43,084 nucleotides of DNA from a virus (IMGVR_UViG_3300042328_001188:1-43084), one strand, 5' to 3'. Positions 3,776 to 40,050 are shown, counted from the first letter of the stretch. A program made the numbers and translations. Notes: a model not told the origin generated them from the letters alone.

Positions 3776-3979
3776 ATGGCAATTTTAAGAGGGCAATCGC
3801 ACCCATCGGCAAAACTTACTGACGAGCAAGTCTTAATTATTCGTGACTTATGGAAAATGGGTCATCGTAATATCAAAGTTATAGCTCGTAACAATAAGGT
3901 ATCACCATCAAATGTAATGAAGATAGTTCAACGTAAAACTTGGGCACACTTAAATCAATTTTGGTCTGGTAGTTTATGA
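3776..3979 (+). CDS. Small helix-turn-helix DNA-binding protein
   Basis: This 67-aa protein reads HPSAKLTDEQVLIIRDLW and then IARNNKVSPSNVMKIVQRKTW. That is the pattern of the HTH module often found on phage HNH or other mobile endonucleases (LTxxQVxxIRxL, then IAxxxxVSxxxVxxIxxxxxW), here standing alone without a nuclease domain. It could be a remnant of a homing endonuclease or a small regulator. Its stop overlaps the start of the first Mom-like gene (ATGA), which points to co-expression with it. Confidence 0.65.
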   Translation: MAILRGQSHPSAKLTDEQVLIIRDLWKMGHRNIKVIARNNKVSPSNVMKIVQRKTWAHLNQFWSGSL

Positions 3980-4749
3980 AAGTAGAAGGTAAACAATATT
4001 GCGATACCTCTAAGTTTTCTATTAGAGAGATTAATAAAAACATAGCAAAGGATATCATTGTCAATAACCACTACAGTGGAATATGGACGAAGGTATCCTA
4101 TGCTATTGGATTATTTTACATATCCGAAGATGAACACAATTTCTTTAGTGGAGTTAATGAACAATTGGTTGGGGTTGCCTGTTATGGTGACCCGGTTGGT
4201 AGAAATGCCGGTGCATCTATTTCCGAATTACTTCCTAGAGATGGTGTATTAGAATTAACTCGTCTATTCGTATTTGATGGATATGGTACTAACATTGAGA
4301 GTTGGTTCGTTGGGCAATCTTTCGAATGGTTAAGAACTAATGTACCTCGTATTAAAGCTCTAATATCATATTCAGACCCAAATGCTGGACACTTAGGAAC
4401 GGTATATCAAGCTACCAACTGGATATATCAGGGAAACAAAATCAGATGGTCAGATAGTTGGTCTTTCAAATGGAGTGAGGATGATGAATGGCATCATTCT
4501 CGGACATCTTATGTGAAGTACGGAACGAATGACCCAAAGATAATTCAGACAATGGTTACAAGCCCATTCTGGATTAAAAGAGAACCCCGTAAGCACCGAT
4601 ATGTGTATATTCTAACCAAAGATAAGAAGGAACGCAAAGCCCTCTTAAAATCGCTTAAACATGAGGTGTTCCCATATCCAAAGGTAGAGTTGGATATTAT
4701 TGATGAGGTTCATAAAATGGACCCGATAGATTTGGTAGTTTCAGAATAA
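3976..4749 (+). CDS. Mom-like GNAT-fold DNA modification protein, copy A
   Basis: This 257-aa protein carries the features of phage proteins related to Mu Mom, which converts adenine to a carbamoylmethyl form in phage DNA and so protects it from restriction. Visible motifs are NNHYSG (31-35), a YAIGLFY strand (42-48), LELTRLF (92-98), YGTNIESWFVGQSF (103-116), SYSDP (131-135) and GHLGTVYQATNWIYQG (138-153), the most conserved segment of the family. It is about 43% identical by eye to copy B at 5008-5808 over the first 150 residues, and both begin MKVEGK. The C-terminal part (RKHRYVYIL, KKERKALLK) is basic and shared by both copies. The exact base modified is unknown. Confidence 0.72.
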   Translation: MKVEGKQYCDTSKFSIREINKNIAKDIIVNNHYSGIWTKVSYAIGLFYISEDEHNFFSGVNEQLVGVACYGDPVGRNAGASISELLPRDGVLELTRLFVFDGYGTNIESWFVGQSFEWLRTNVPRIKALISYSDPNAGHLGTVYQATNWIYQGNKIRWSDSWSFKWSEDDEWHHSRTSYVKYGTNDPKIIQTMVTSPFWIKREPRKHRYVYILTKDKKERKALLKSLKHEVFPYPKVELDIIDEVHKMDPIDLVVSE

Positions 4750-4769: not shown

Positions 4770-5024
4770 ATGGCAAGAGTAGAACCAAACGCTAAGGATA
4801 AACCACGTAAATTTGAACACATCTATAAGGATGATGATGGATGTGAATCAATTTGGAAATACGATTTGGATAAATTCCCAAATGGACCTATATCAGTAGA
4901 GAACAAATATCCTGCTGGTTATGTGAAAGATTTGAAACAAAGACAAAAATTAGCAAAGGCTGAACGAAGTTTATCTATTTTAGAAAAAGCAAAACAAGCA
5001 AAAAAGAATGAAGGTAGAAGGTAA
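4770..5024 (+). CDS. Hypothetical protein between the two Mom-like genes
   Basis: An 84-aa protein I do not recognise. The N-terminal half (FEHIYKDDDGCESIWKYDL) looks like a small compact domain, and the C-terminal 40 residues are a highly charged helix (LKQRQKLAKAERSLSILEKAKQAKK). It is driven directly by promoter P1 and overlaps the start of Mom-like copy B by 17 nt, so the two should be produced together. In phage Mu, mom is expressed with a partner gene, com, but there is no zinc-finger or other Com-like feature here. An earlier ATG at 4764 gives only four codons and was not used. Confidence 0.7.
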   Translation: MARVEPNAKDKPRKFEHIYKDDDGCESIWKYDLDKFPNGPISVENKYPAGYVKDLKQRQKLAKAERSLSILEKAKQAKKNEGRR

Positions 5025-5808
5025 AAATTATTGTGATACATCGAAAGTATATGTAGCACCAATAGCAAAGAGTATCGCTAAAGATATTATTGTTAAGAAA
5101 CACTATACTCACGCTTGGACAGCTTGTAGATATGCAATTGGAATATATTACAAATCAGAAGATGCCAATACCTTTGATGGTGATAAACTTATAGGTTGTT
5201 TAATATATGGTTTTCCTGTTGGAGCAAAAGCATCCACTTCTATTTGTGAAGGATTAACCAAAGATAACATTTTAGAATTGACACGTTTGTATTGTGATGA
5301 TGGATATGGTTCTAATATTGAATCATTTGCATTAGGACAATCTTTCAAATGGTTAAAGGAACATGATAAAGCAATTAAAGTATTACTATCATACGCCGAT
5401 AACGGACAAGCTCATTTAGGAGGAATATATCAAGCTACCAATTGGATTTATCAGGGATTATCTACGGATATTGCATTGATGCCAAATTGGGGTATATCAT
5501 TACACAAAGACCCGTATCAATGGATTCATAGTAGGACTGTGTTTTCAATGTGGGGTAGTGGTAACTTAGCACACTTACAAATGGAAATCGGTAAGCAAGG
5601 ATATAAAGAGTTTTGGAGAAGGGAAGAACCACCAAAGCATAGATATGTTCAGATACTTGCGCAAGATAAAAAAGAAAAGAAAGATTTGATGAAACGATTG
5701 AAACACGAAATCAGACCTTATCCAAAAGATACCGCTTCATACAATACAGAAGTAGTACATCACCTAACTACATACGAAGTGCCGGAAGGAACGGCCAATT
5801 TTTGGTAA
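5008..5808 (+). CDS. Mom-like GNAT-fold DNA modification protein, copy B
   Basis: A 266-aa paralogue of copy A. The same landmarks occur in order: KKHYTHAW (30-37), YAIGIYY (42-48), ILELTRLY (88-95), YGSNIESFALGQSF (100-113), LSYADNGQAHLGG (127-139) and IYQATNWIYQG (140-150). The C-terminal block PPKHRYVQIL with KKEKKDLMKRLKHEIRPYPK matches copy A (RKHRYVYIL, KALLKSLKHEVFPYPK). The family is linked to adenine hypermodification in Mu-like phages. Copy A has YSDP where copy B has YADN, so the pocket may differ. The pair probably arose by duplication, and the two may modify different bases or form a heteromer. Confidence 0.72.
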   Translation: MKVEGKNYCDTSKVYVAPIAKSIAKDIIVKKHYTHAWTACRYAIGIYYKSEDANTFDGDKLIGCLIYGFPVGAKASTSICEGLTKDNILELTRLYCDDGYGSNIESFALGQSFKWLKEHDKAIKVLLSYADNGQAHLGGIYQATNWIYQGLSTDIALMPNWGISLHKDPYQWIHSRTVFSMWGSGNLAHLQMEIGKQGYKEFWRREEPPKHRYVQILAQDKKEKKDLMKRLKHEIRPYPKDTASYNTEVVHHLTTYEVPEGTANFW

Positions 5809-21245: not shown

Positions 21246-23312
21246 ATGGCATTAACTAAAAGATTAAGTAAAGGTTCTCCACTTACTGCAGCTGAGATGG
21301 ATGGTAACTTAGATTTTTTACAATCTCAAATTACAGCTGGTTCATCTGGAACTAGTGGAACATCTGGGGTAAATGGTTCACAAGGAATATCGGGAACGGG
21401 AGGTACATCTGGTACATCAGGTACTTCTGGAACATCTGGTGTAAAGGGTGATTTGTTTACATCCACATCAAATAATAATCATGATATTTCATTAGGTTCA
21501 AAGACATTTACAATAGCAGGGGGTCTGTCTTGGACACCTGGTCAACAAACTATTATATCTCAAAATGGTAGTAACTACATGACCGCTACAGTAACATCTT
21601 ACAATAGTGGTACAGGTCAATTTATTGTAAATGTGGTGTCTGTTGTTGGTAGTGGTACTGGTATAACATCTTGGTTTATAAATACCGCAGGTGCAACTGG
21701 ACAGGCTGGTTCTTCAGGCTCATCCGGAACTTCTGGAACTTCTGGAACATCGGGAACTTCTGGAACATCAGGAACTTCTGGAACTAGCGGAACATCGGGA
21801 ACTTCTGGGATTAATGGTACATCCGGAACATCAGGAACGTCTGGAACTAGCGGAACATCGGGTACATCTGGTACATCTGGTACATCAGGAACTTCTGGAA
21901 CATCTGGAACATCTGGTATAAATGGTAATGATGGAACATTTTTTGGTTCATCTGGAACTTCTGGAGAAAGTGGAACATCTGGAGTGAATGGTACATCCGG
22001 AGTTAATGGAACTTCTGGTGTAAACGGAACATCTGGAACAAGTGGAACAAGCGGTACATCCGGAACATCTGGTATAAATGGTGTGGCTGGTAGTAGTGGT
22101 ACATCGGGTACATCTGGAACATCTGGTACATCTGGGACAACTTTTAATTTAAGTGGAACAACCGATAATGGTGTTATTACATCAAATAATGGTACAGCCG
22201 GTACTGTAGAATCTAATTTATTATTTGATGGAACTCTATTAACAATTAGAGGAAATCTTTCAGCATCTGGAGCATTTACATCATCATTAAGACAAGGATA
22301 TGTTTTAGTTGGTGGTGCTGGTAATGTAACTACGTTAGTAGCAACATCATCATTTGGTGGCGCAGGTACTACAACAACCGATGGGATATTCAGAGCAACT
22401 GGTTCAATCGTAGCAACAACAAACAATTTACAAATTACAGGTTCTTTGGATATATTAGGACCTATTACGGCATCATTAAGAACGGGATATGTTTGGGTTG
22501 GTGATAATAGTAGAAGTACAAGACAAGTAGCAACATCATCATTTGGAGCAACTTTGACTGTAGAAGATGGTACTCCTACAATAGTACCTAATGTAACTAA
22601 AATAATATTTAGTGGAGCATCTGTTACTAATAATGGTAGTGGTCAAATTACTGTAACTGTTACCGGTGGAGGTGGTGGTGGTACATCTGGTACATCGGGA
22701 ACATCTGGCGCCTCTGGTGTAGCTGGTACATCTGGTTCATCTGGTACATCTGGTGCTAATGGTAAAGATGGTACGATGGGTACATCCGGTACATCTGGTA
22801 TTAGTGGTGGTGTTAGTTCGGCCGGCTCATCGGGAACTTCTGGAACATCTGGTACATCTGGTTCTAACGGATTTGGTACAAGTGGTACAAGTGGTACAAG
22901 TGGTATAAATGGTACTTCTGGTGCTAGTGGATTGAATGGAGATGCTGGTACGTCTGGTTCATCTGGAACTAGCGGTACATCTGGTGTAACTGGTGGAGCA
23001 TCTACTGGAGGTACGTCTGGAACTTCTGGTACATCTGGTAATTTAACTTTAAGTGGTACAACAAATGATGGTATTTTAACATTTGATGGAGGTCTTGTTC
23101 AGGGTATAGTTGAATCCGACTTTACATTTAACGCAAGTAGTAAAATTTTAACTGTAAGTGGATCTGTATTAGCATATACATCAGTTACATTAAGACCGGT
23201 TGATACCCTACCGGCAGGCGCAGTTGGTAAATTAGCATCATATGCTCCGGTATCACCAGCATCGGCATCTTTATATTTCCATAATGGTTCAGATTGGGTT
23301 AAGGTAGTTTAA
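21246..23312 (+). CDS. Collagen-like tail fibre/virion protein with Gly-Thr-Ser repeats
   Basis: A 688-aa modular protein. The head KRLSKGSPLTAAEMDGN is typical of phage fibre and virion proteins. Three Gly-X-Y tracts, mostly Gly-Thr-Ser with GIN/GVN interruptions, occupy about 32-67, 150-299 and 474-600. Between them are a globular beta-rich insert (about 70-148, with LSWTPGQQTIIS) and a region with a doubled motif (SLRQGYVLVGG and SLRTGYVWVGD, each followed by VATSSFG). A LSGTTDNGVIT module after the second tract recurs as LSGTTNDGILT after the third, evidence of internal duplication. Gly-X-Y tracts should form a trimeric collagen-like stalk; hundreds of Thr/Ser are potential O-glycosylation sites. 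No proline occurs in the GTS tracts. Confidence 0.88.
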   Translation: MALTKRLSKGSPLTAAEMDGNLDFLQSQITAGSSGTSGTSGVNGSQGISGTGGTSGTSGTSGTSGVKGDLFTSTSNNNHDISLGSKTFTIAGGLSWTPGQQTIISQNGSNYMTATVTSYNSGTGQFIVNVVSVVGSGTGITSWFINTAGATGQAGSSGSSGTSGTSGTSGTSGTSGTSGTSGTSGTSGINGTSGTSGTSGTSGTSGTSGTSGTSGTSGTSGTSGINGNDGTFFGSSGTSGESGTSGVNGTSGVNGTSGVNGTSGTSGTSGTSGTSGINGVAGSSGTSGTSGTSGTSGTTFNLSGTTDNGVITSNNGTAGTVESNLLFDGTLLTIRGNLSASGAFTSSLRQGYVLVGGAGNVTTLVATSSFGGAGTTTTDGIFRATGSIVATTNNLQITGSLDILGPITASLRTGYVWVGDNSRSTRQVATSSFGATLTVEDGTPTIVPNVTKIIFSGASVTNNGSGQITVTVTGGGGGGTSGTSGTSGASGVAGTSGSSGTSGANGKDGTMGTSGTSGISGGVSSAGSSGTSGTSGTSGSNGFGTSGTSGTSGINGTSGASGLNGDAGTSGSSGTSGTSGVTGGASTGGTSGTSGTSGNLTLSGTTNDGILTFDGGLVQGIVESDFTFNASSKILTVSGSVLAYTSVTLRPVDTLPAGAVGKLASYAPVSPASASLYFHNGSDWVKVV
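21341..23041 (+). repeat. Tandem 9-nt coding repeats (Gly-Thr-Ser), synonymously varied
   Basis: The fibre gene holds three blocks of 9-nt units encoding Gly-Thr-Ser. At the DNA level units alternate among GGAACTTCT, GGTACATCT, GGAACATCG, GGAACTAGC and others, so the protein repeat is far more regular than the DNA repeat. Confidence 0.9.
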
Positions 23313-28345: not shown

Positions 28346-28579
28346 ATGACAAACCCAAATTTAAAATCATCAATAACAAAAAAAGGAAGATATGTTTCTC
28401 AAATACTTCATTTTATCAATGGAGAGAAAAGAACGTTTGAGGGAGTTGATTCATATTCAATTAAGCAAGGTCAATTTACTAAGTTTGAAACCATAGATGG
28501 AAGATTAGTGATGGTAAATGATAAAAATATACTTTGTATTGAAATAATAGGACAAGAAAATTCAGAAATTAAAAAATAA
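28346..28579 (+). CDS. Hypothetical small protein, 77 aa
   Basis: Unrecognised. It reads as a small beta-barrel-like protein: ILHFINGEKRTFEGV, IKQGQFTKFET, GRLVMVNDKNILCIEII. The alternating hydrophobic strands resemble an SH3-like fold. No link to sugar chemistry is visible; it sits between the GT-D enzyme and the aminotransferase. Confidence 0.62.
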   Translation: MTNPNLKSSITKKGRYVSQILHFINGEKRTFEGVDSYSIKQGQFTKFETIDGRLVMVNDKNILCIEIIGQENSEIKK

Positions 28580-28585
28580 TTAATT

Positions 28586-29218
28586 ATGCCAATGTTACAC
28601 AATCCGTACAAAATCGTTAGAATGTTTGAAGAAGAAATAGCAGCTTATACGGGAGCTCCTTACGCTATTTCGGTTGATAGTTGCACTAATGCACTATTCT
28701 TAATGTGTAAGTACTTAGAAGTTAAAGAGGTAACCATTCCATCTAAAACTTATTTATCAGTACCGCAATCAATTATACACGCTGGTGGTGAAGTTATCTT
28801 TGATAAAAGACCTGAAACAAATCATTGGGTGGGTGCATATCAATTAAAACCATATCCAATTTGGGATGCGGCTAAAAGATTAACAAAAGGTATGTATCAA
28901 CCTGGAACTTATATGGGATTATCATTCCATATTAAAAAGCAATTACCAATTTGGAAAGGTGGTATGATTCTAACTGATGATGCTAAAGCAGCTGAATGGT
29001 TTAAGAAAGCTCGTTACGAAGGTAGAAGTGAGAAGTATTACAAAGATGATAATATTGAGTTTTGTGGTTGGAATATGTATATGACTCCACAGCAAGCGGC
29101 GCAAGGATTAGCAATGTTTCAAAACTATCCTGAACATAATGCAGATTTGGGTGAATTGAATGGTTATAGAGATTTAACTGAGTTCACTGTTTTTAAAAAT
29201 AATAAAGTAATCGAATAA
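28586..29218 (+). CDS. DegT/DnrJ/EryC1-type PLP aminotransferase, compact
   Basis: A 210-aa version of a family usually about 370 aa. Recognisable parts: FEEEIAAYTGAPYAISVDSCTNAL (split over 14-37), the cofactor aspartate in IWDAAKR (Asp94), the PLP-lysine region LSFHIKK (Lys117 or 118) followed by GGMILTDD, and GWNMYMTPQQAA. The C-terminal small domain is missing. Neighbouring genes run on without a frameshift, so it looks like a true compact form rather than decay. Full enzymes aminate NDP-ketosugars; activity of this form is uncertain. Confidence 0.75.
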   Translation: MPMLHNPYKIVRMFEEEIAAYTGAPYAISVDSCTNALFLMCKYLEVKEVTIPSKTYLSVPQSIIHAGGEVIFDKRPETNHWVGAYQLKPYPIWDAAKRLTKGMYQPGTYMGLSFHIKKQLPIWKGGMILTDDAKAAEWFKKARYEGRSEKYYKDDNIEFCGWNMYMTPQQAAQGLAMFQNYPEHNADLGELNGYRDLTEFTVFKNNKVIE

Positions 29219-29219
29219 T

Positions 29220-29438
29220 ATGGAATTGTTACAAATAATAAATAAAGTATTGGAAAACAATGGTTACCAAACAATATCAGACTTAAATGATGATATGAAT
29301 TTAAAAAATGATATTGGATTTGATAGCTTTATGTTAGCTGAATTGACAGTTGAAATTGAAGAAGCTTGTAATATTGATATTTTCAAAGATAGCTTGATTT
29401 TTACTATTGGTGATATTAAAAAGAAGCTAAATGGATAA
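29220..29438 (+). CDS. Acyl carrier protein
   Basis: A 72-aa carrier protein with GFDSFMLAEL, where Ser36 is the 4'-phosphopantetheine attachment site, and helices before and after as in ACP. It is shorter than most but complete. The next gene, an adenylating enzyme, overlaps it by 8 nt, so the two should work together: the enzyme activates an acid and loads it on this carrier. It needs a phosphopantetheinyl transferase, presumably from the host. Confidence 0.85.
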   Translation: MELLQIINKVLENNGYQTISDLNDDMNLKNDIGFDSFMLAELTVEIEEACNIDIFKDSLIFTIGDIKKKLNG

Positions 29439-30531
29439 TATATTTTTTATAGATGAGAATGTGATAACCTACGCACAACTAATTTCAGAATTAAATGAGC
29501 CAAACACTATTTGCAATCTATCGGAAATAGAAAAATCAATTATTAATGTAATTAGAGCATTAATTTCAGATACTATAATTGATTATAATCATTTAATTGA
29601 AAATATAAAAACAACAAATAGTATAATACAATTAAAAACATCTGGAACAACTGCAGAACCAAAGACTATTAATCATACCTTTGAAAGTATCACACGTAAT
29701 ATAAAAGTTTCTAATAATAGAATTGATGATGTTTGGGGGTTTACATACAATCCAACAAAAATGGCAGGGTATCAAGTATTATTTCAATCAATATTAAATA
29801 AAAATACTTTAGTTAATTTGTTTAAATGCAGTTATACAAATACATCCAATAGAATAAAAAAATATAATATAACTCATATATCAGCAACTCCAACATTTTA
29901 TAAAATTTTAACATCTGAAAAAATAACATATCCAAATGTAAAACATATATCATTAGGAGGTGAGGGCTCTAATGGTGAATTTCAAAATAAATTAAAAGTA
30001 AGTTTTCCAAATGCAAGAATAAAAAATATATATGCATCAACTGAAGTTAGTTCTTTATTTGCAACAGAAGGTGATACTTTTAAAATACCTGCGAAATATA
30101 AAAATTTAATACGATTTAATTCTGGTAAATTAATTGTACATAAAAGTTTAGTTGGTAGTTCGGATAATATAGTTTTTGATGGTGATTGGTATGATACTGG
30201 TGATTTGATTGAATTAATTGATGCTAGTACTTTTAAAATAATTGGACGTGATGGATTTTTAGTAAATGTGGGCGGATACCAAATCAATCCAATATACATT
30301 GAACAAAAGATAACAGAATTGGATTATGTTAAATTGTGTAAAGTATATTCAAAATCAAATTCACTTCTTGGCAACATTATAATTTGTGATTTGGTATTAT
30401 TTAATGATGTTAGTATATTTGAAATAAAAACTGATATGAAAACTATTTTAAATGAGTATGAGATACCAGCAAAGATAAACATAGTTGATGAAATAATAAT
30501 AAATGAAAATGGAAAAATCTCAAGAAAATAA
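29431..30531 (+). CDS. ANL-superfamily adenylating enzyme (acyl-ACP ligase-like)
   Basis: A 366-aa member of the acyl-CoA synthetase/NRPS adenylation superfamily. Core motifs: TSGTTAEPK (70-78), YASTEV, YDTGDLIEL (about 253-261), GRDGFLVNVGGYQINP (about 271-286) and a terminal NGKISRK with the catalytic lysine. The first 130 or so residues typical of the family are reduced, as in DltA-like or short AMP-ligases. It should adenylate a carboxylic acid and transfer it to the ACP encoded just upstream. Confidence 0.87.
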   Translation: MDNIFFIDENVITYAQLISELNEPNTICNLSEIEKSIINVIRALISDTIIDYNHLIENIKTTNSIIQLKTSGTTAEPKTINHTFESITRNIKVSNNRIDDVWGFTYNPTKMAGYQVLFQSILNKNTLVNLFKCSYTNTSNRIKKYNITHISATPTFYKILTSEKITYPNVKHISLGGEGSNGEFQNKLKVSFPNARIKNIYASTEVSSLFATEGDTFKIPAKYKNLIRFNSGKLIVHKSLVGSSDNIVFDGDWYDTGDLIELIDASTFKIIGRDGFLVNVGGYQINPIYIEQKITELDYVKLCKVYSKSNSLLGNIIICDLVLFNDVSIFEIKTDMKTILNEYEIPAKINIVDEIIINENGKISRK

Positions 30532-31234
30532 AAATATTTTAATAACTGGAATTTCTAAAGGTCTTGGATTTGAAATTTCTAAATTGTTATTATCTAAATC
30601 ATATAATGTATATGGTTTGGGTAGAAATTCCAATTCTGAATTAGAAAAATTTGATAACTTCAAATTTATTAATATCGATTTAGTAAATATTGACACATTG
30701 GAATCCGACCTAAAAAATTTAATCGGAAATACTATAAAATTGCATGGATTTGTAAATAACGCAGCAGTTGCATATGATGATATTATTACTAATATGAATT
30801 TGGATAGGTTAGAAAGTATGTACAAAGTAAATGTATTCTCACCATTATTAATAACTAAATTTGCTATTAGAAATATGATATACAATAAAGTTGCCGGTTG
30901 TATTATACACATATCAAGTATAAGTGTACATACTGGTTACAATGGATTGTCTATGTACGCATCAAGTAAAGGCGCATTAGAGGCATTTTCAAAAAATACT
31001 GCTAGGGAGTGGGGACGGAAAGGAATTCGTTCAAATTGTATTGTTGCTGGTTTTATGGAAACTGATATGAGTAGTACATTAACGGACGAGCAAAAAGATA
31101 GAATATATAATAGAACATCCTTAAAGAAACCAACTAACAAACAGTCGGTGGCCAGTACAGTAGAATTTTTATTATCAGATAATTCTTATTCAATAACAGG
31201 TCAACTAATAAATGTAGATAACGGAACTATATAA
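30503..31234 (+). CDS. Short-chain dehydrogenase/reductase, FabG-like
   Basis: A 243-aa classical SDR with the NADPH loop TGISKGLGF (15-23), NNAAVAYDD, a catalytic Ser in IIHISSIS, and YASSKGALEAF holding Tyr-x3-Lys. The end SITGQLINVDNG is a FabG hallmark. A second ATG lies two codons in (30509). It overlaps the adenylating enzyme by 29 nt. Next to an ACP, a 3-oxoacyl-ACP reductase function that makes a hydroxyacyl group is the simplest reading. Confidence 0.88.
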   Translation: MKMEKSQENKNILITGISKGLGFEISKLLLSKSYNVYGLGRNSNSELEKFDNFKFINIDLVNIDTLESDLKNLIGNTIKLHGFVNNAAVAYDDIITNMNLDRLESMYKVNVFSPLLITKFAIRNMIYNKVAGCIIHISSISVHTGYNGLSMYASSKGALEAFSKNTAREWGRKGIRSNCIVAGFMETDMSSTLTDEQKDRIYNRTSLKKPTNKQSVASTVEFLLSDNSYSITGQLINVDNGTI

Positions 31235-31235
31235 T

Positions 31236-32009
31236 ATGCAAACTATAAAAATAAACGATTCAAATTATATTTCATTTGATAATACTGAATGGAATTCTAG
31301 AGCATTGGGCTATCTTACCAATGAAATATATGATATACAATTTGATTCAATAGAATTGGCAAATGAATTATTTAATCAATTTGAAACTAATTGCTTAAAT
31401 AACAATATAGTATATACTTCACTAAGAATTAATCCAGACTCTAAAATTAAAAAAGAAATATTAGAAAGATTTGGATTTATCAATGTTGAAACTAGTATTC
31501 TAGTCAATGGTTCTTTAAAAAATGTAAAAGAAAATAAAATACTGAGTAAGTTTAAATTTACATTACGAAAGTGTGAAGATACTGATGTTAATACTGTCAA
31601 ACAAATAGCATCAAATGATTTTAATCATGGTAGATTTTTTGAAGACCATATGATTGATGCCGATGTTGCCAAATTGAGAAATTCAAATTGGATAGATGAT
31701 TTAAGAAAAAAATCAAAAGTATTAGTTGGTGAATATGATGGGATTGTTTTTGGATTTATGGCACTCAAAACTAATAATCTTATTGTTAATTTGGAATTGG
31801 GTGGTGTTGATTCCAAATATTCTCATCTAGCTTATTCATTTTGGTATAAAATTTTTGAGTATCTAAAGAATGAAAACAACTTAAGTGTGAACGCATTAAT
31901 TAGTGCACATAATATTAGTGTAATAAATTTGTATTCTTTTTTTGATTTTAAATTTAAAGAATCGTACATAGGATACAGAAAATTAAGAAAAACAAATTTT
32001 AAATTATAA
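31236..32009 (+). CDS. GNAT-family N-acyltransferase (WecD/RffC-like)
   Basis: A 257-aa protein with an N-terminal domain resembling that of WecD/RffC sugar N-acetyltransferases (NTEWNSRALGYLT), then a GNAT domain from about residue 105: FTLRKCEDTD, VLVGEYDGIVFGFMAL and VNALISAHNISVINLYSFFDF. The family transfers an acyl group to the amino group of dTDP-amino-sugars. As it follows an ACP, a ligase and an SDR, it is a good candidate for the step that moves the acyl group from ACP to an amino sugar made with the DegT enzyme. Confidence 0.75.
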   Translation: MQTIKINDSNYISFDNTEWNSRALGYLTNEIYDIQFDSIELANELFNQFETNCLNNNIVYTSLRINPDSKIKKEILERFGFINVETSILVNGSLKNVKENKILSKFKFTLRKCEDTDVNTVKQIASNDFNHGRFFEDHMIDADVAKLRNSNWIDDLRKKSKVLVGEYDGIVFGFMALKTNNLIVNLELGGVDSKYSHLAYSFWYKIFEYLKNENNLSVNALISAHNISVINLYSFFDFKFKESYIGYRKLRKTNFKL

Positions 32010-32012
32010 ATT

Positions 32013-33098
32013 ATGCAAAACGAAGAATGTGATATTTTGTATGTTAGTGGTATTTTTGATTATGGTGAATCTGTTAGCGGTAGTTATATATTGTACAAAA
32101 TACTTAAAAAACTTAATTTTACTTTAAAAGTATTACCAATGTTTGATGGTACAAATCACCCCATTGATACCAAAGACTTTTTACCTTATATTCACCCATA
32201 TACACAAAACGCTTTAGAAGTACTTTTAAATACAATACCAAACCATAAAATATTAATAGCATCGGGTAACGATTTTAATGTTGAGTTAATTGAGTATATA
32301 TGTAAAAAATTTGACAGCAAATTTGTACTTATAACAGGTACACATTGGATGTATGGTAATAATAGTGAGTATCCTGAATTAGATGGTGCATTTTATGGTG
32401 ATGTGATTAGTAAGAGAGCTGAAATATATAAATCCATACATTCTTATTTAATTCCCGGCTCAACTCATTCTGTAAATGTACATAATCAAAGTTTACTAAA
32501 AGATATACCATATGAATTGATACCATTTCCATTTGATGAAATTGAAATTGACGATTCTCCAAAAAATCAGCAAACTAAAAAAGTAATACTATGGGGAACA
32601 ACTCAACCAAATCAACCTAGAAAAGGAAAAGATTATTTTGAAAATATATTAGAATGGTTATATAAAAAAGTTGATAATCCAGAAGAAATTCTTATAAAAA
32701 CGATAGGTCCTAAAGCAGAATTAAAAACTAAATTTAACGTTGAATATTTAGGAGTTATTCCGAATAGAACTGAATTATCAAAAATTTATAAAAATGTAAA
32801 AGTGTTTGCATTAACAACAATCGCTGATGCTGGTCCTATGATGGCTACGGAATGTGTTAAAAATAGTACACCCTTAGTATCCTTTTCAACTAACATAGCA
32901 GCTGATTTTGTAAAAGATGGTAAAAATGGTTATATAGTAAATGGTACTGAAGAATATGCGGACAGACTTATAGATATTTTATACAACGATAAATTTCACA
33001 TAGATTTGGATTATGTAAAACAATTTAATTCAGAAGAAATTGTTGTAAACAAATATAATAACTTTTTTAAAAAAATTATAAATGATAACATTTCATAA
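32013..33098 (+). CDS. GT-B glycosyltransferase, GT4-like
   Basis: A 361-aa protein with the interdomain IPFPFDEIEI, a VILWGTTQPNQPRKGKDYF strand-loop at the start of the second domain, and DAGPMMATECVKNSTPLVSF, where the first Glu of E-x7-E is Asp. IAADFVKDGKNGYIV is typical of the WcaC/GT4 C-terminus. It overlaps the fucosyltransferase start by 17 nt. Confidence 0.83.
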   Translation: MQNEECDILYVSGIFDYGESVSGSYILYKILKKLNFTLKVLPMFDGTNHPIDTKDFLPYIHPYTQNALEVLLNTIPNHKILIASGNDFNVELIEYICKKFDSKFVLITGTHWMYGNNSEYPELDGAFYGDVISKRAEIYKSIHSYLIPGSTHSVNVHNQSLLKDIPYELIPFPFDEIEIDDSPKNQQTKKVILWGTTQPNQPRKGKDYFENILEWLYKKVDNPEEILIKTIGPKAELKTKFNVEYLGVIPNRTELSKIYKNVKVFALTTIADAGPMMATECVKNSTPLVSFSTNIAADFVKDGKNGYIVNGTEEYADRLIDILYNDKFHIDLDYVKQFNSEEIVVNKYNNFFKKIINDNIS

Positions 33099-33939
33099 AT
33101 TGGGAGAGTTAGGAAGATTGGGAAATCAATTGTTCCAATATGCAGCGTTAAAGGGATTGGCATTAAAAAATGGATATGAAGTAAAAATACCAAATCCACA
33201 AACAATGAGCTGGCATGGACAAACTTCTTTGTTAGATAAATTTAATATTGAGTGTGAATATGCTACTCAAGATGATATGAATACCTTACAAAATTTATAT
33301 GAAGAGCCAACATGGCAAAAGTATGATGATAAATTCTTTAATGTTCCAGACAATACAACATTACAAGGATTCTTTCAAAGTACATTTTATTTTGAGCACA
33401 TTGAATCTCAAATTAAAAAAGAACTTACTCCTAAAGATGAGTATTTAAACAAAGGTAAAGAATACATTCAATCTTTGAAAGATGAGCATAATTGTGAAAT
33501 AGTAAGTGTGCATGTTAGACGTGGTGATAATATGACAAACGGACAAACTGAACTTATACAGGCATTTGAACCCGGTGGTTTATATGAACAATATTTTACA
33601 AATGCTAAAAAAGTGTTTGACGGTAAAAAAATGAAGTTTTTAATATTCACCGGTGGTCAAAGATTTAATGAAGATAATTCAACTGATGTGGAGTGGTGCA
33701 AGAACTTCTTTAAGGGAGATGAGTTTTTGTTTTCAGAAGGTCAAACACAAATAGATGATTTTTGCAGAATTATGTTATGTGACCATAATATACTTTCGCA
33801 TGCTAGTAGTTTTGGATGGTGGGCAGCATATATAAACCCAAATCCAAATAAAATAGTAGTTGCACCGGAATATTACTCACCGGATTCTCCAACTTTAAAA
33901 AGAGAAAAATTTTATCCAAAAGAATACATTTTAAAATAA
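33082..33939 (+). CDS. Alpha-1,2-fucosyltransferase (GT11)
   Basis: A 285-aa GT11 enzyme with the N-terminal GRLGNQLFQYA (11-21), the GDP-fucose binding VSVHVRRGDN (about 140-149) and the late DFCRIMLCDHNIL, then SHASSFGWWAAY, all hallmark segments. It transfers L-fucose from GDP-fucose to a galactose-type acceptor. The GDP-L-fucose synthase gene lies two genes downstream, so donor production and transfer are both phage-encoded, except for the dehydratase step. Confidence 0.93.
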   Translation: MITFHKLGELGRLGNQLFQYAALKGLALKNGYEVKIPNPQTMSWHGQTSLLDKFNIECEYATQDDMNTLQNLYEEPTWQKYDDKFFNVPDNTTLQGFFQSTFYFEHIESQIKKELTPKDEYLNKGKEYIQSLKDEHNCEIVSVHVRRGDNMTNGQTELIQAFEPGGLYEQYFTNAKKVFDGKKMKFLIFTGGQRFNEDNSTDVEWCKNFFKGDEFLFSEGQTQIDDFCRIMLCDHNILSHASSFGWWAAYINPNPNKIVVAPEYYSPDSPTLKREKFYPKEYILK

Positions 33940-37930: not shown

Positions 37931-38686
37931 ATGAAAATATTAGTTATAGGAGATAGTTGTAAAGATGTATTCATCTATGGTACAGCCAATAGGTTGTGTC
38001 CTGAAGCTCCTGTGCCTGTATTCATTCCTAAAAGAAAAACGGAAACAGGTGGTATGGCAGCTAATGTATATGAGAATATAGAATCACTAAATGTTGAAGT
38101 TGATTTGATAACAAATTCAGAACCTATCACAAAGACAAGATATGTTGAGGAAAAAACAAATCACCAAATTATTAGAGTTGATTCAGATGCAACAAAATCA
38201 CAAAGAGTTGAAGGATTGGAACATATACCATATTCAAACTATTGTGCCGTAATTATATCAGATTACAACAAAGGGTTTTTGGAGTATGATGATATTGAAT
38301 ACATTTGTTCAAAGCATGATACGGTATTCATTGATACTAAAAAGATTGTGAATGAAAAAATGTTGGGAGCTAAGTTCATTAAAATAAATGAACATGAGTA
38401 TGAAAACAATATCGCAGCTGGGCAATACTTCAAAGAATTCTACGATAAGTTAATTGTAACTATGAGTGGTAAGGGATGCAAGTATATGGAGAAAGAGTTC
38501 AATGTTGACGAAGTGGAAGTGAGAGATAATAGTGGAGCAGGTGATTCATTCATATCAGCATTAACAATTGAATATTGTAGAAGTAAGAATATTGATAAAG
38601 CTATTGTGTATGCTAATGAATGTGCTACAATCGCAGTTCAACACAAAGGAGTAACGAAGGTTGGTAATCATATTAAAATTTACTAA
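37931..38686 (+). CDS. PfkB/ribokinase-family carbohydrate kinase, HldE N-domain-like
   Basis: A 251-aa kinase. RLCPEAPVPVF (21-31) and TGGMAANV (39-46) match the start of HldE/RfaE heptose-7-phosphate kinases, and DNSGAGDSF (about 199-207) is the PfkB catalytic signature with the Asp base. It is shorter than the usual 310-320 aa. Next to it is a gene fusing a HAD phosphatase to a nucleotidyltransferase, the same order of activities needed for NDP-heptose. Confidence 0.83.
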   Translation: MKILVIGDSCKDVFIYGTANRLCPEAPVPVFIPKRKTETGGMAANVYENIESLNVEVDLITNSEPITKTRYVEEKTNHQIIRVDSDATKSQRVEGLEHIPYSNYCAVIISDYNKGFLEYDDIEYICSKHDTVFIDTKKIVNEKMLGAKFIKINEHEYENNIAAGQYFKEFYDKLIVTMSGKGCKYMEKEFNVDEVEVRDNSGAGDSFISALTIEYCRSKNIDKAIVYANECATIAVQHKGVTKVGNHIKIY

Positions 38687-40050
38687 TGACAAAATTAATT
38701 ATCTTTGACTTGGATGGTGTGCTGGTTGAAGCAAAGCAAATACACTATGATACATTAAATCAAGCTCTAAGAGAAATAGATGAAAAATATATAATATCTG
38801 AAGCTGAGCATCTATCCACATATGATGGATTAAAGACAACACAAAAGTTAGAGTTACTTACTAAAAACAAAGGATTACATCCTGAATTTTATGATGATAT
38901 TTGGTATAGAAAGCAACATCTAACTATTGAAGCTATTTCACAATTACAACCAGATTCACAAAAAATTGAATTGTTTAAAGAGTTGAGAGATGGGGGATAT
39001 AAGTTAGCATGTGCTTCAAACTCAATTAGAAGGTCTGTGTTAGTTATGTTAGCAAAGATAGGTATAATTGAGTATATGGACTTAATCATCTCCAATGAGG
39101 ACGTAAAGAACTCTAAACCGCATCCTGAGATGTATTGGAAGGCAATGAGTATGATGAGTGTGTTGCCGGAAGAAACCCTAATTGTAGAAGATTCACCACA
39201 TGGTTTATTGGCGGCAAGTAGAAGTAGAGCAAATGTATTGAGAGTAGATAATCCAAAAGATTTGGTAATTTCAAAAATTATTCGTAAATTAGAACAAACT
39301 AAAAAAGTTATGAGCATACCAAAATGGCAAGGTGGTAAGATGAATGTACTTATCCCAATGGCCGGAGCTGGAAGTAGATTCCAACAAGCAGGTTATACAT
39401 TTCCAAAACCACTAATTGATGTGGAAGGTAAACCAATGATTCAGGTTGTAGTAGATAACCTAAACATAGAAGCTACATACATTTATGTAGTTCAAAAAGA
39501 ACATAGAGAGAAGTACAACTTAGATACTCTATTAAACTTAATAACTCCTAATTGTAAGATTGTGGAAGTTGATGGTTTGACAGAGGGAGCTGCTTGTACA
39601 ACTCTATTAGCTAAGGAACATATTGATAATGATGCTCCTTTAGTTATGGCAAACTCTGACCAATTCGTAGAATGGGATAGTAATGAGTTTATGTATAAGA
39701 TGATTGAACAAAAAGTAGATGGTGGTATCTTAACATTTACAGCAACACATCCTAAATGGTCATTTGCTAAAGTAGATGAGTATGGATATGTAACGGAAGT
39801 AGCAGAGAAGAATCCAATTTCAGATATTGCAACTGTTGGAGTTTACTATTGGGCTAAAGGTTCTGATTATGTAAAGTATGCAGAACAAATGATTGAAAAG
39901 AATATCAGAACTAACAATGAGTTTTATACTTGCCCAACTTTTAACGAAGCAATTGCGGATGGTAAAAAAATAAAAACATTTAACATTGATAAGATGTGGG
40001 GATTGGGAACGCCAGAAGATTTAAAATATTACTTAGAAAACAAAAAATAA
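38686..40050 (+). CDS. HAD phosphatase - sugar nucleotidyltransferase fusion
   Basis: A 454-aa two-domain enzyme. Residues 1 to about 200 are a HAD phosphatase of the phosphoglucomutase/GmhB kind (FDLDGVLV with Asp8 and Asp10, CASNS, KPHPEMYW, VEDSPHGLLAA). From Met219, MNVLIPMAGAGSRF, then FPKPLIDVEGKPMI begins a nucleotidyltransferase of the glucose-1-phosphate thymidylyltransferase type, with NSDQFVEW as the metal-binding part. Kinase, phosphatase and NTP transfer are thus coded in two adjacent genes. The ATG codon for Met219 (39340) could allow the second domain to be made alone. Confidence 0.9.
   Translation: MTKLIIFDLDGVLVEAKQIHYDTLNQALREIDEKYIISEAEHLSTYDGLKTTQKLELLTKNKGLHPEFYDDIWYRKQHLTIEAISQLQPDSQKIELFKELRDGGYKLACASNSIRRSVLVMLAKIGIIEYMDLIISNEDVKNSKPHPEMYWKAMSMMSVLPEETLIVEDSPHGLLAASRSRANVLRVDNPKDLVISKIIRKLEQTKKVMSIPKWQGGKMNVLIPMAGAGSRFQQAGYTFPKPLIDVEGKPMIQVVVDNLNIEATYIYVVQKEHREKYNLDTLLNLITPNCKIVEVDGLTEGAACTTLLAKEHIDNDAPLVMANSDQFVEWDSNEFMYKMIEQKVDGGILTFTATHPKWSFAKVDEYGYVTEVAEKNPISDIATVGVYYWAKGSDYVKYAEQMIEKNIRTNNEFYTCPTFNEAIADGKKIKTFNIDKMWGLGTPEDLKYYLENKK

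Follow-up and report, generated by a model that had tools for sequence, protein, structure and literature searches.

The window analysed here (IMGVR_UViG_3300042328_001188:1-43084) is the whole of a 43 kb IMG/VR fragment (43,084 nucleotides) from a T4-like phage encoding DNA polymerase, clamp, clamp loader and ribonucleotide reductase. All five consecutive genes described at 28586-32009 in an initial annotation are present on the + strand. They encode a half-length DegT-type sugar aminotransferase (mini-DegT), an acyl carrier protein (ACP), an ANL adenylating ligase, a short-chain dehydrogenase/reductase (SDR) and a GNAT, and the phage may well carry in them a self-contained acyl-donor module that attaches a short hydroxyacyl group to the nitrogen of an amino sugar. 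The genes, said to be mostly overlapping, mostly abut one another, and overlaps are found only at ACP/ligase (8 bp) and ligase/SDR (29 bp). Their reading as a phage cassette for an acyl-modified amino sugar is borne out as far as an ACP-based donor pathway with a WecD-fold N-acyltransferase and a DegT protein is concerned, but the DegT protein is half-length and its gene lies outside the captured insert. The unit is also larger than five genes, because GNAT and a GT4 glycosyltransferase, which are encoded separately in the window, form one protein of 611 aa in an uninterrupted frame of the viral contig L010 (8662-10494). As the initial annotation had stated, no phage system of this kind is described in the literature searched (open-access papers).

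Enzymes of the module

Profile searches against Pfam and NCBIfam confirm the identities first given to the DegT protein, the ACP, the ligase and the SDR. The ACP matches PP-binding (PF00550; 2e-7, 31.6 bits, cut-off 20.8), with Ser36 inside a GFDS motif, and the ligase matches AMP-binding (PF00501; 7e-14, 51.9 bits, cut-off 29.9) and keeps TSGTT (the Ser-Gly-Thr loop), YASTE, YDTGD, the GR..N..GG hinge and NGKIxRK, with the catalytic C-terminal Lys362 in the alignment; the DS phosphopantetheine site and the ligase motifs noticed at first are thus in place. The SDR matches its family profile at 2e-39, and its best NCBIfam match is a 3-oxoacyl-ACP reductase, with a score of 152 bits against the curated cut-off of 297.75 bits for TIGR01830 (FabG), which is not reached. 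In phylogenetic trees, the phage SDR and ligase nest within clades of bacterial module enzymes. Searches of a phage collection with the ligase, ACP and GNAT returned no annotated phage homologue: the ACP and GNAT gave zero matches, and the ligase gave two weak ones to unannotated Staphylococcus records. DltA models also match the ligase, and a Dlt-like D-alanylation was considered and dropped, since the partner of the ligase is an SDR, not DltB or DltD, and the bacterial neighbours are sugar genes.

The GNAT had been called WecD/RffC-like, which its predicted fold supports and its sequence does not: the Pfam and NCBIfam searches gave no significant match, the best being PRK10975/WecD (E 0.06, 13.1 bits versus a cut-off of 219). 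Among solved structures, the one that best matches the AlphaFold model (pLDDT 89.8, pTM 0.84) is WecD, the TDP-fucosamine acetyltransferase (Foldseek 2.4e-13; VIA Z 19.9, rmsd 3.5 over 216 residues). The GNAT–GT4 fusion in L010 suggests that acyl transfer is tied to glycosyl transfer.

The module in other viral contigs

When viral sequences were first scanned, the patterns derived from two phages and recovered those two only. Wider alignments recovered the others, so that the early apparent rarity of the viral module reflects the patterns used. The ACP–ligase–SDR module is found in 11 viral contigs (the window, L010, L144-L151 and L163, of which L150 and L151 are near-copies). Its genes are linked in all of them, and a DegT gene lies upstream, at most ~4 kb away, in 11/11, so that the linkage claimed for the cassette holds in related phages as far as ACP–ligase–SDR is concerned. 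The distance is ~4 kb in L144, and the DegT gene of L150 is cut by the contig end. The DegT proteins of L144-L151 are mini-DegTs 43-48% identical to that of the window, and that of L163 is full-length. The acyltransferase is a WecD-like GNAT in the window and L010 and, in the other nine, a hexapeptide protein whose gene precedes that of the ACP. The combination of DegT, acyltransferase and ACP–ligase–SDR thus recurs in phages with a non-homologous acyltransferase. Over the module, the window and L010 are 57-81% identical with intact frames and dN/dS of 0.11-0.32; the module is under purifying selection. In L163 (2564-6717), genes for a full-length DegT (379 aa), a hexapeptide acyltransferase, ACP, ligase and SDR are consecutive.

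Comparison of ~35 related viral loci shows a near-constant upstream order of GT2, GT, GT2, a WecB-like epimerase, a conserved protein of no assigned function and the mini-DegT, and a content that varies after the DegT stop codon. The slot is empty in L004, L008, L012, L013 and L019, where GT11 follows the mini-DegT directly; it holds a hexapeptide acyltransferase and GT4 in L018, and ACP–ligase–SDR–GNAT–GT4 in the window and L010. The GC content of the inserted genes is 24-28%. ACP–ligase–SDR–GNAT (29220-32009) together with GT4 is an exchangeable insert between DegT and GT11.

The mini-DegT aminotransferase

The mini-DegT (210 aa) matches DegT_DnrJ_EryC1 (PF01041; 2e-22, 80.3 bits, gathering cut-off 19.8), whereas DegT proteins encoded next to this module in bacteria are ~360-400 aa long. 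Asp94, the pyridine-nitrogen aspartate, and Lys118, the pyridoxal phosphate (PLP) lysine, are invariant in 13 diverse mini-DegTs and aligned with their counterparts in PDB relatives. The predicted model resembles GDP-perosamine synthase, DesI, PseC and WecE, and it does not reproduce the full-length two-domain DegT fold of ~360-400 residues (TM-score 0.61 by query length and ~0.36 by target length). Aminotransferase activity is predicted, and the half length leaves it unproven. A dN/dS of 0.11 against L010 indicates strong purifying selection. Relatives are encoded in at least 561 viral loci, indicating that the mini-DegT is a widespread phage gene outside the recent history of the cassette; it is a core gene of many phages without the rest and not a member of the captured insert.

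Bacterial counterparts and known systems

A scan of bacterial genomes gave 269 ligase relatives, of which the best 80 (loci L057-L136) were examined. In 75 of these 80, mostly from Bacteroidota, the ACP, ligase and SDR genes are contiguous and keep this order. Because the module recurs in the same order at these loci and in the 11 viral contigs, under purifying selection, a chance arrangement is excluded. In bacteria, the module lies among genes for sugar N-acylation. Hexapeptide acyltransferases lie directly downstream of bacterial modules in 13/62 cases and directly upstream in 13/61; other neighbours are FdtA-type isomerases (FdtA in 8), DegT, NeuB, GNAT and ketoacyl synthases. A full-length DegT is encoded within 7 kb of the module in 38/80 loci. 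In L115, L121 and L123, a homologue of the phage GNAT (31-36%) directly follows the SDR, giving the same four-gene order. Two loci on Azospirillum plasmids (L052 and L056) have ACP–ligase–SDR with ketoacyl-ACP synthase III (KASIII) between pseI and flagellin genes, a placement that suggests acylated nonulosonic acids on flagellin. A 127-aa protein encoded between ligase and SDR in L087 (1646-2026) looks, by eye, like the four-helix proteins of 23S rRNA intervening sequences.

The Bacteroidota surface-polysaccharide modules, especially L115, L121 and L123, are ~60% identical to the phage proteins in the SDR, ~50% in the ACP, ~40% in the ligase and 31-36% in the GNAT. They differ in that the bacterial DegT has its full length of 360-400 aa and is often separated from the module by a few genes, and no characterisation of them was found. 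E. coli WecE and WecD, which aminate and N-acetylate TDP-Fuc4N, likewise pair a DegT aminotransferase with a GNAT, whose fold is that of the phage GNAT, but use an acetyl-CoA donor, no ACP and a full-length DegT. In Vibrio cholerae O1, 2,4-dihydroxybutanoic acid is the N-acyl group on perosamine, and the reductases and the acyltransferase of this tetronate pathway are of other kinds than those of the phage. The adenylating ligase and carrier protein that the bacterial O-antigen cluster devotes to this hydroxy acid, RfbL and RfbK, are like those of the phage (PMC12208996). In the Flavobacterium psychrophilum O-antigen genes wfpC-wfpG, a dedicated ACP, a ketoreductase and an acyltransferase are proposed to add a 3,5-dihydroxyhexanoyl group to an amino sugar, resembling the proposed phage pathway in bringing an ACP-borne hydroxyacyl group to such a sugar; they differ in having their own 3-ketoacyl-ACP synthases and a PglD-type acyltransferase, and an adenylating ligase is not named (PMC6519341). 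MupQ, MupS and MacpD of mupirocin synthesis produce a 3-hydroxypropionate starter from malonyl-CoA, and these proteins and their thiomarinol counterparts, like the phage set, comprise a ligase, an SDR and an ACP, with which they yield a short hydroxyacyl-ACP (PMC10098928), as proposed for the phage. Their product, however, primes a polyketide-type side chain and not a sugar, and identity to the phage proteins is 25-33%.

Gene layout and glycan block

The five genes lie inside a glycan gene block spanning ~23.4 to 42.2 kb of the window, in which no flippase or polymerase was recognised. Directly before the block, 21246-23312 encodes a 688-aa protein with SGTSGTSG repeats (Pfam Collagen, 4e-34), possibly a glycosylated virion fibre; TSG-rich frames stand at the equivalent position in L003, L009, L010, L014 and L016-L019. 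Within the block, 38686-40050 encodes a HAD phosphatase fused to a sugar-phosphate nucleotidyltransferase domain (HAD_2 and NTP_transferase), and many related loci have the same fusion. Elsewhere in the window, two paralogous genes in tandem, 3976-4749 and 5008-5808, encode proteins of the Mom family of DNA modification (Pfam Mom, 2e-43 and 3e-44). The closest DNA polymerase in the phage collection is that of Microcystis phage Mel-JY01 (51%).

Table 1. Features at and around the exchangeable slot, numbered from the first nucleotide of the window.
Feature	Position	Strand	Remarks
Conserved 77-aa protein	28346..28579	+	Relatives have a small GNAT fused to it or encoded before it; this GNAT is missing in the window
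Half-length DegT-type sugar aminotransferase (mini-DegT), PLP Lys118 and Asp94	28586..29218	+	Core phage gene bordering the variable slot
Exchangeable slot, mini-DegT stop to GT11 start	29219..33081	+	Low GC (24-28%)
Acyl carrier protein, 72 aa, phosphopantetheine Ser36 (GFDS)	29220..29438	+	
Short ANL adenylating ligase (366 aa) with every core motif; predicted ACP loader	29431..30531	+	
SDR reductase, module-specific clade, S139, Y152, K156; distinct from E. coli FabG	30503..31234	+	
WecD-fold GNAT, predicted N-acyltransferase	31236..32009	+	
GT4 glycosyltransferase, C-terminal fusion partner of GNAT in L010, hence insert member	32013..33098	+	
GT11 family (fucosyltransferase-type) gene, closing border of the slot	33082..33939	+	

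Proposed pathway and alternatives

The identity, order, conservation and exchangeability of the genes and the GNAT–GT4 fusion are read from the sequence, and from these we infer all catalytic steps, the sugar, the acid and the final glycan. A host phosphopantetheinyl transferase would arm the phage ACP, the ANL ligase would adenylate a short acid and load it onto the ACP, and the SDR would use NAD(P)H to reduce the ACP-bound acyl group to a short hydroxyacyl-ACP. The WecD-like GNAT would transfer the acyl group to the amino group of a nucleotide amino sugar, whose amine would have been installed by the phage mini-DegT, and the adjoining GT4 would put the acylated sugar into a glycan made by the surrounding phage glycosyltransferases. 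Formation of an acyl-ACP is very likely; that the acyl group is a hydroxyacyl and that it N-acylates an amino sugar are both probable, and the mini-DegT is the favoured maker of that sugar. The initial annotation also had an acid loaded on the ACP, reduced and moved to a phage-made amino sugar; the kind of pathway mostly stands, while the load-then-reduce order and the phage origin of the sugar are inferred.

Most relatives have a small GNAT gene immediately ahead of the mini-DegT gene. The window and L010, the two phages with a GNAT-type module, lack it at this place and throughout their complete records of 79.8 and 72.9 kb. Among 97 distinct loci, a small GNAT is near DegT in 56 and the ACP module is present in 11, and both occur together in 0 (Fisher p 3e-5, from a test that treats loci as independent, ignores relatedness and so overstates independence). 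Such exclusion is expected if both provide the acyl group for one amino sugar. The identification of this small GNAT as PseH is unsupported, its best NCBIfam match being a weak one to RimI. In L004, L005, L008, L011 and L015 it forms an in-frame fusion with the conserved protein of 77 aa directly before DegT, and the copy of that protein in the window stands alone.

Besides the relatedness of the loci, several points weigh against the proposed pathway. On the mini-DegT tree, the module label takes 3 changes, of which 2 are forced by well-supported branches. The donor of WecD is acetyl-CoA, and the use of acyl-ACP by the phage GNAT is therefore proposed by analogy. The mini-DegT is missing a central segment and the greater part of the small C-terminal domain, and we know of no half-length DegT that is active. 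No phosphopantetheinyl transferase was found in the phage records, so that arming of the ACP by the host is an assumption; the module has no keto-acid-forming enzyme, which leaves the substrate of the SDR unfixed, and no enzyme specifying the keto-sugar was pinned down.

The glycan might decorate the host envelope instead of the virion, serving superinfection exclusion or receptor change. The collinearity of the module with bacterial surface-polysaccharide genes fits this idea, but the collagen-like TSG-repeat protein that precedes the glycan block, both in the window and in several relatives, offers a possible virion target and the block has no recognised flippase or polymerase, so that a host-envelope glycan is rather less probable than not. 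It is also conceivable, though unlikely, that the acylated amine does not come from the mini-DegT, which might have no activity or persist as a PLP-binding remnant for some other purpose, and that the module acts on an amino sugar made by the host or carries out O-acylation. The half length of the protein and its being far commoner than the module would agree with this, whereas the invariant catalytic Asp and Lys, the low dN/dS and the DegT gene upstream of every viral module speak for the mini-DegT.

Within the proposed pathway, two routes to the hydroxyacyl-ACP have been considered, each of them tentative. As in a MupQ/MupS/MacpD-type cassette, the ligase may join malonyl-CoA or succinyl-CoA to the ACP through the free carboxylate, and the SDR may reduce the CoA thioester to give 3-hydroxypropionyl- or 4-hydroxybutyryl-ACP. 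The original work on the mupirocin cassette reportedly had the ligase couple either CoA ester to the ACP and the reductase form 3-hydroxypropionyl or 4-hydroxybutyryl. The phage has the same linked ACP, ligase and SDR, and its ligase retrieved the ligase–SDR–ACP set of the thiomarinol plasmid pTML1 (25% identity, E 2e-15). In the SDR tree, TmlS groups with the module SDRs, separate from FabG and EntA (96). KASIII lies beside the module in 12/80 bacterial loci, and 9 of these have a second SDR, which would fit a division of labour between priming and elongation. The 3-hydroxypropionate starter (PMC10098928) and a 4-hydroxybutyramido sugar of Pseudoalteromonas (PMC3210612) speak for this route as well. 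However, the phage SDR is just 32.5% identical to TmlS and 30.7% to FabG, the placement of TmlQ in the ligase tree, with its long branches, is unsettled, and sequence cannot tell the substrate.

Alternatively, the ligase may load a 3-keto acid such as acetoacetate, or a ketoacyl group may come from host fatty acid synthesis, and a FabG-like SDR would yield 3-hydroxybutyryl-ACP. The 3-oxoacyl-ACP reductase as top NCBIfam match of the SDR is consistent with this route, as are the O-antigens of Flavobacteriia with 3-hydroxybutyryl and 3,5-dihydroxyhexanoyl amides. Marine bacteria have both N-(4-hydroxybutyryl) and N-(3-hydroxybutyryl) amino sugars, the latter also found in the Flavobacterium-Flexibacter group (PMC3210612). 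The phage insert has no ketosynthase, and FabG and the module SDRs stand on separate branches, both of which argue against the 3-keto acid route. That the insert is functionless passenger DNA or an assembly artefact, as its low GC might suggest, is highly improbable in view of its intact frames and dN/dS in two phages with 57-81% identity over the module and of nine further viral contigs with the module.

Significance

The finding is a phage version of known bacterial O-antigen chemistry, in which the aminotransferase is half-length and the acylation module can be exchanged. A broader view is speculative: hundreds of phages may have a sugar aminotransferase of minimal, half length encoded beside a slot of variable content, where whole N-acylation systems (a small GNAT, a hexapeptide enzyme or a hydroxyacyl-making ACP–ligase–SDR priming cassette) are exchanged, diversifying a phage-made glycan, and the cassette may also be a general, uncharacterised hydroxyacyl-donor module of Bacteroidota surface polysaccharides. 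If the proposed pathway is true, phages would possess a complete acyl-donor pathway, including a carrier protein of their own, for rare N-acyl amino sugars, going beyond single borrowed glycosyltransferases. It would also provide a test case for the minimum size of a DegT aminotransferase and a testable route into a conserved, apparently unstudied polysaccharide module of Bacteroidota.

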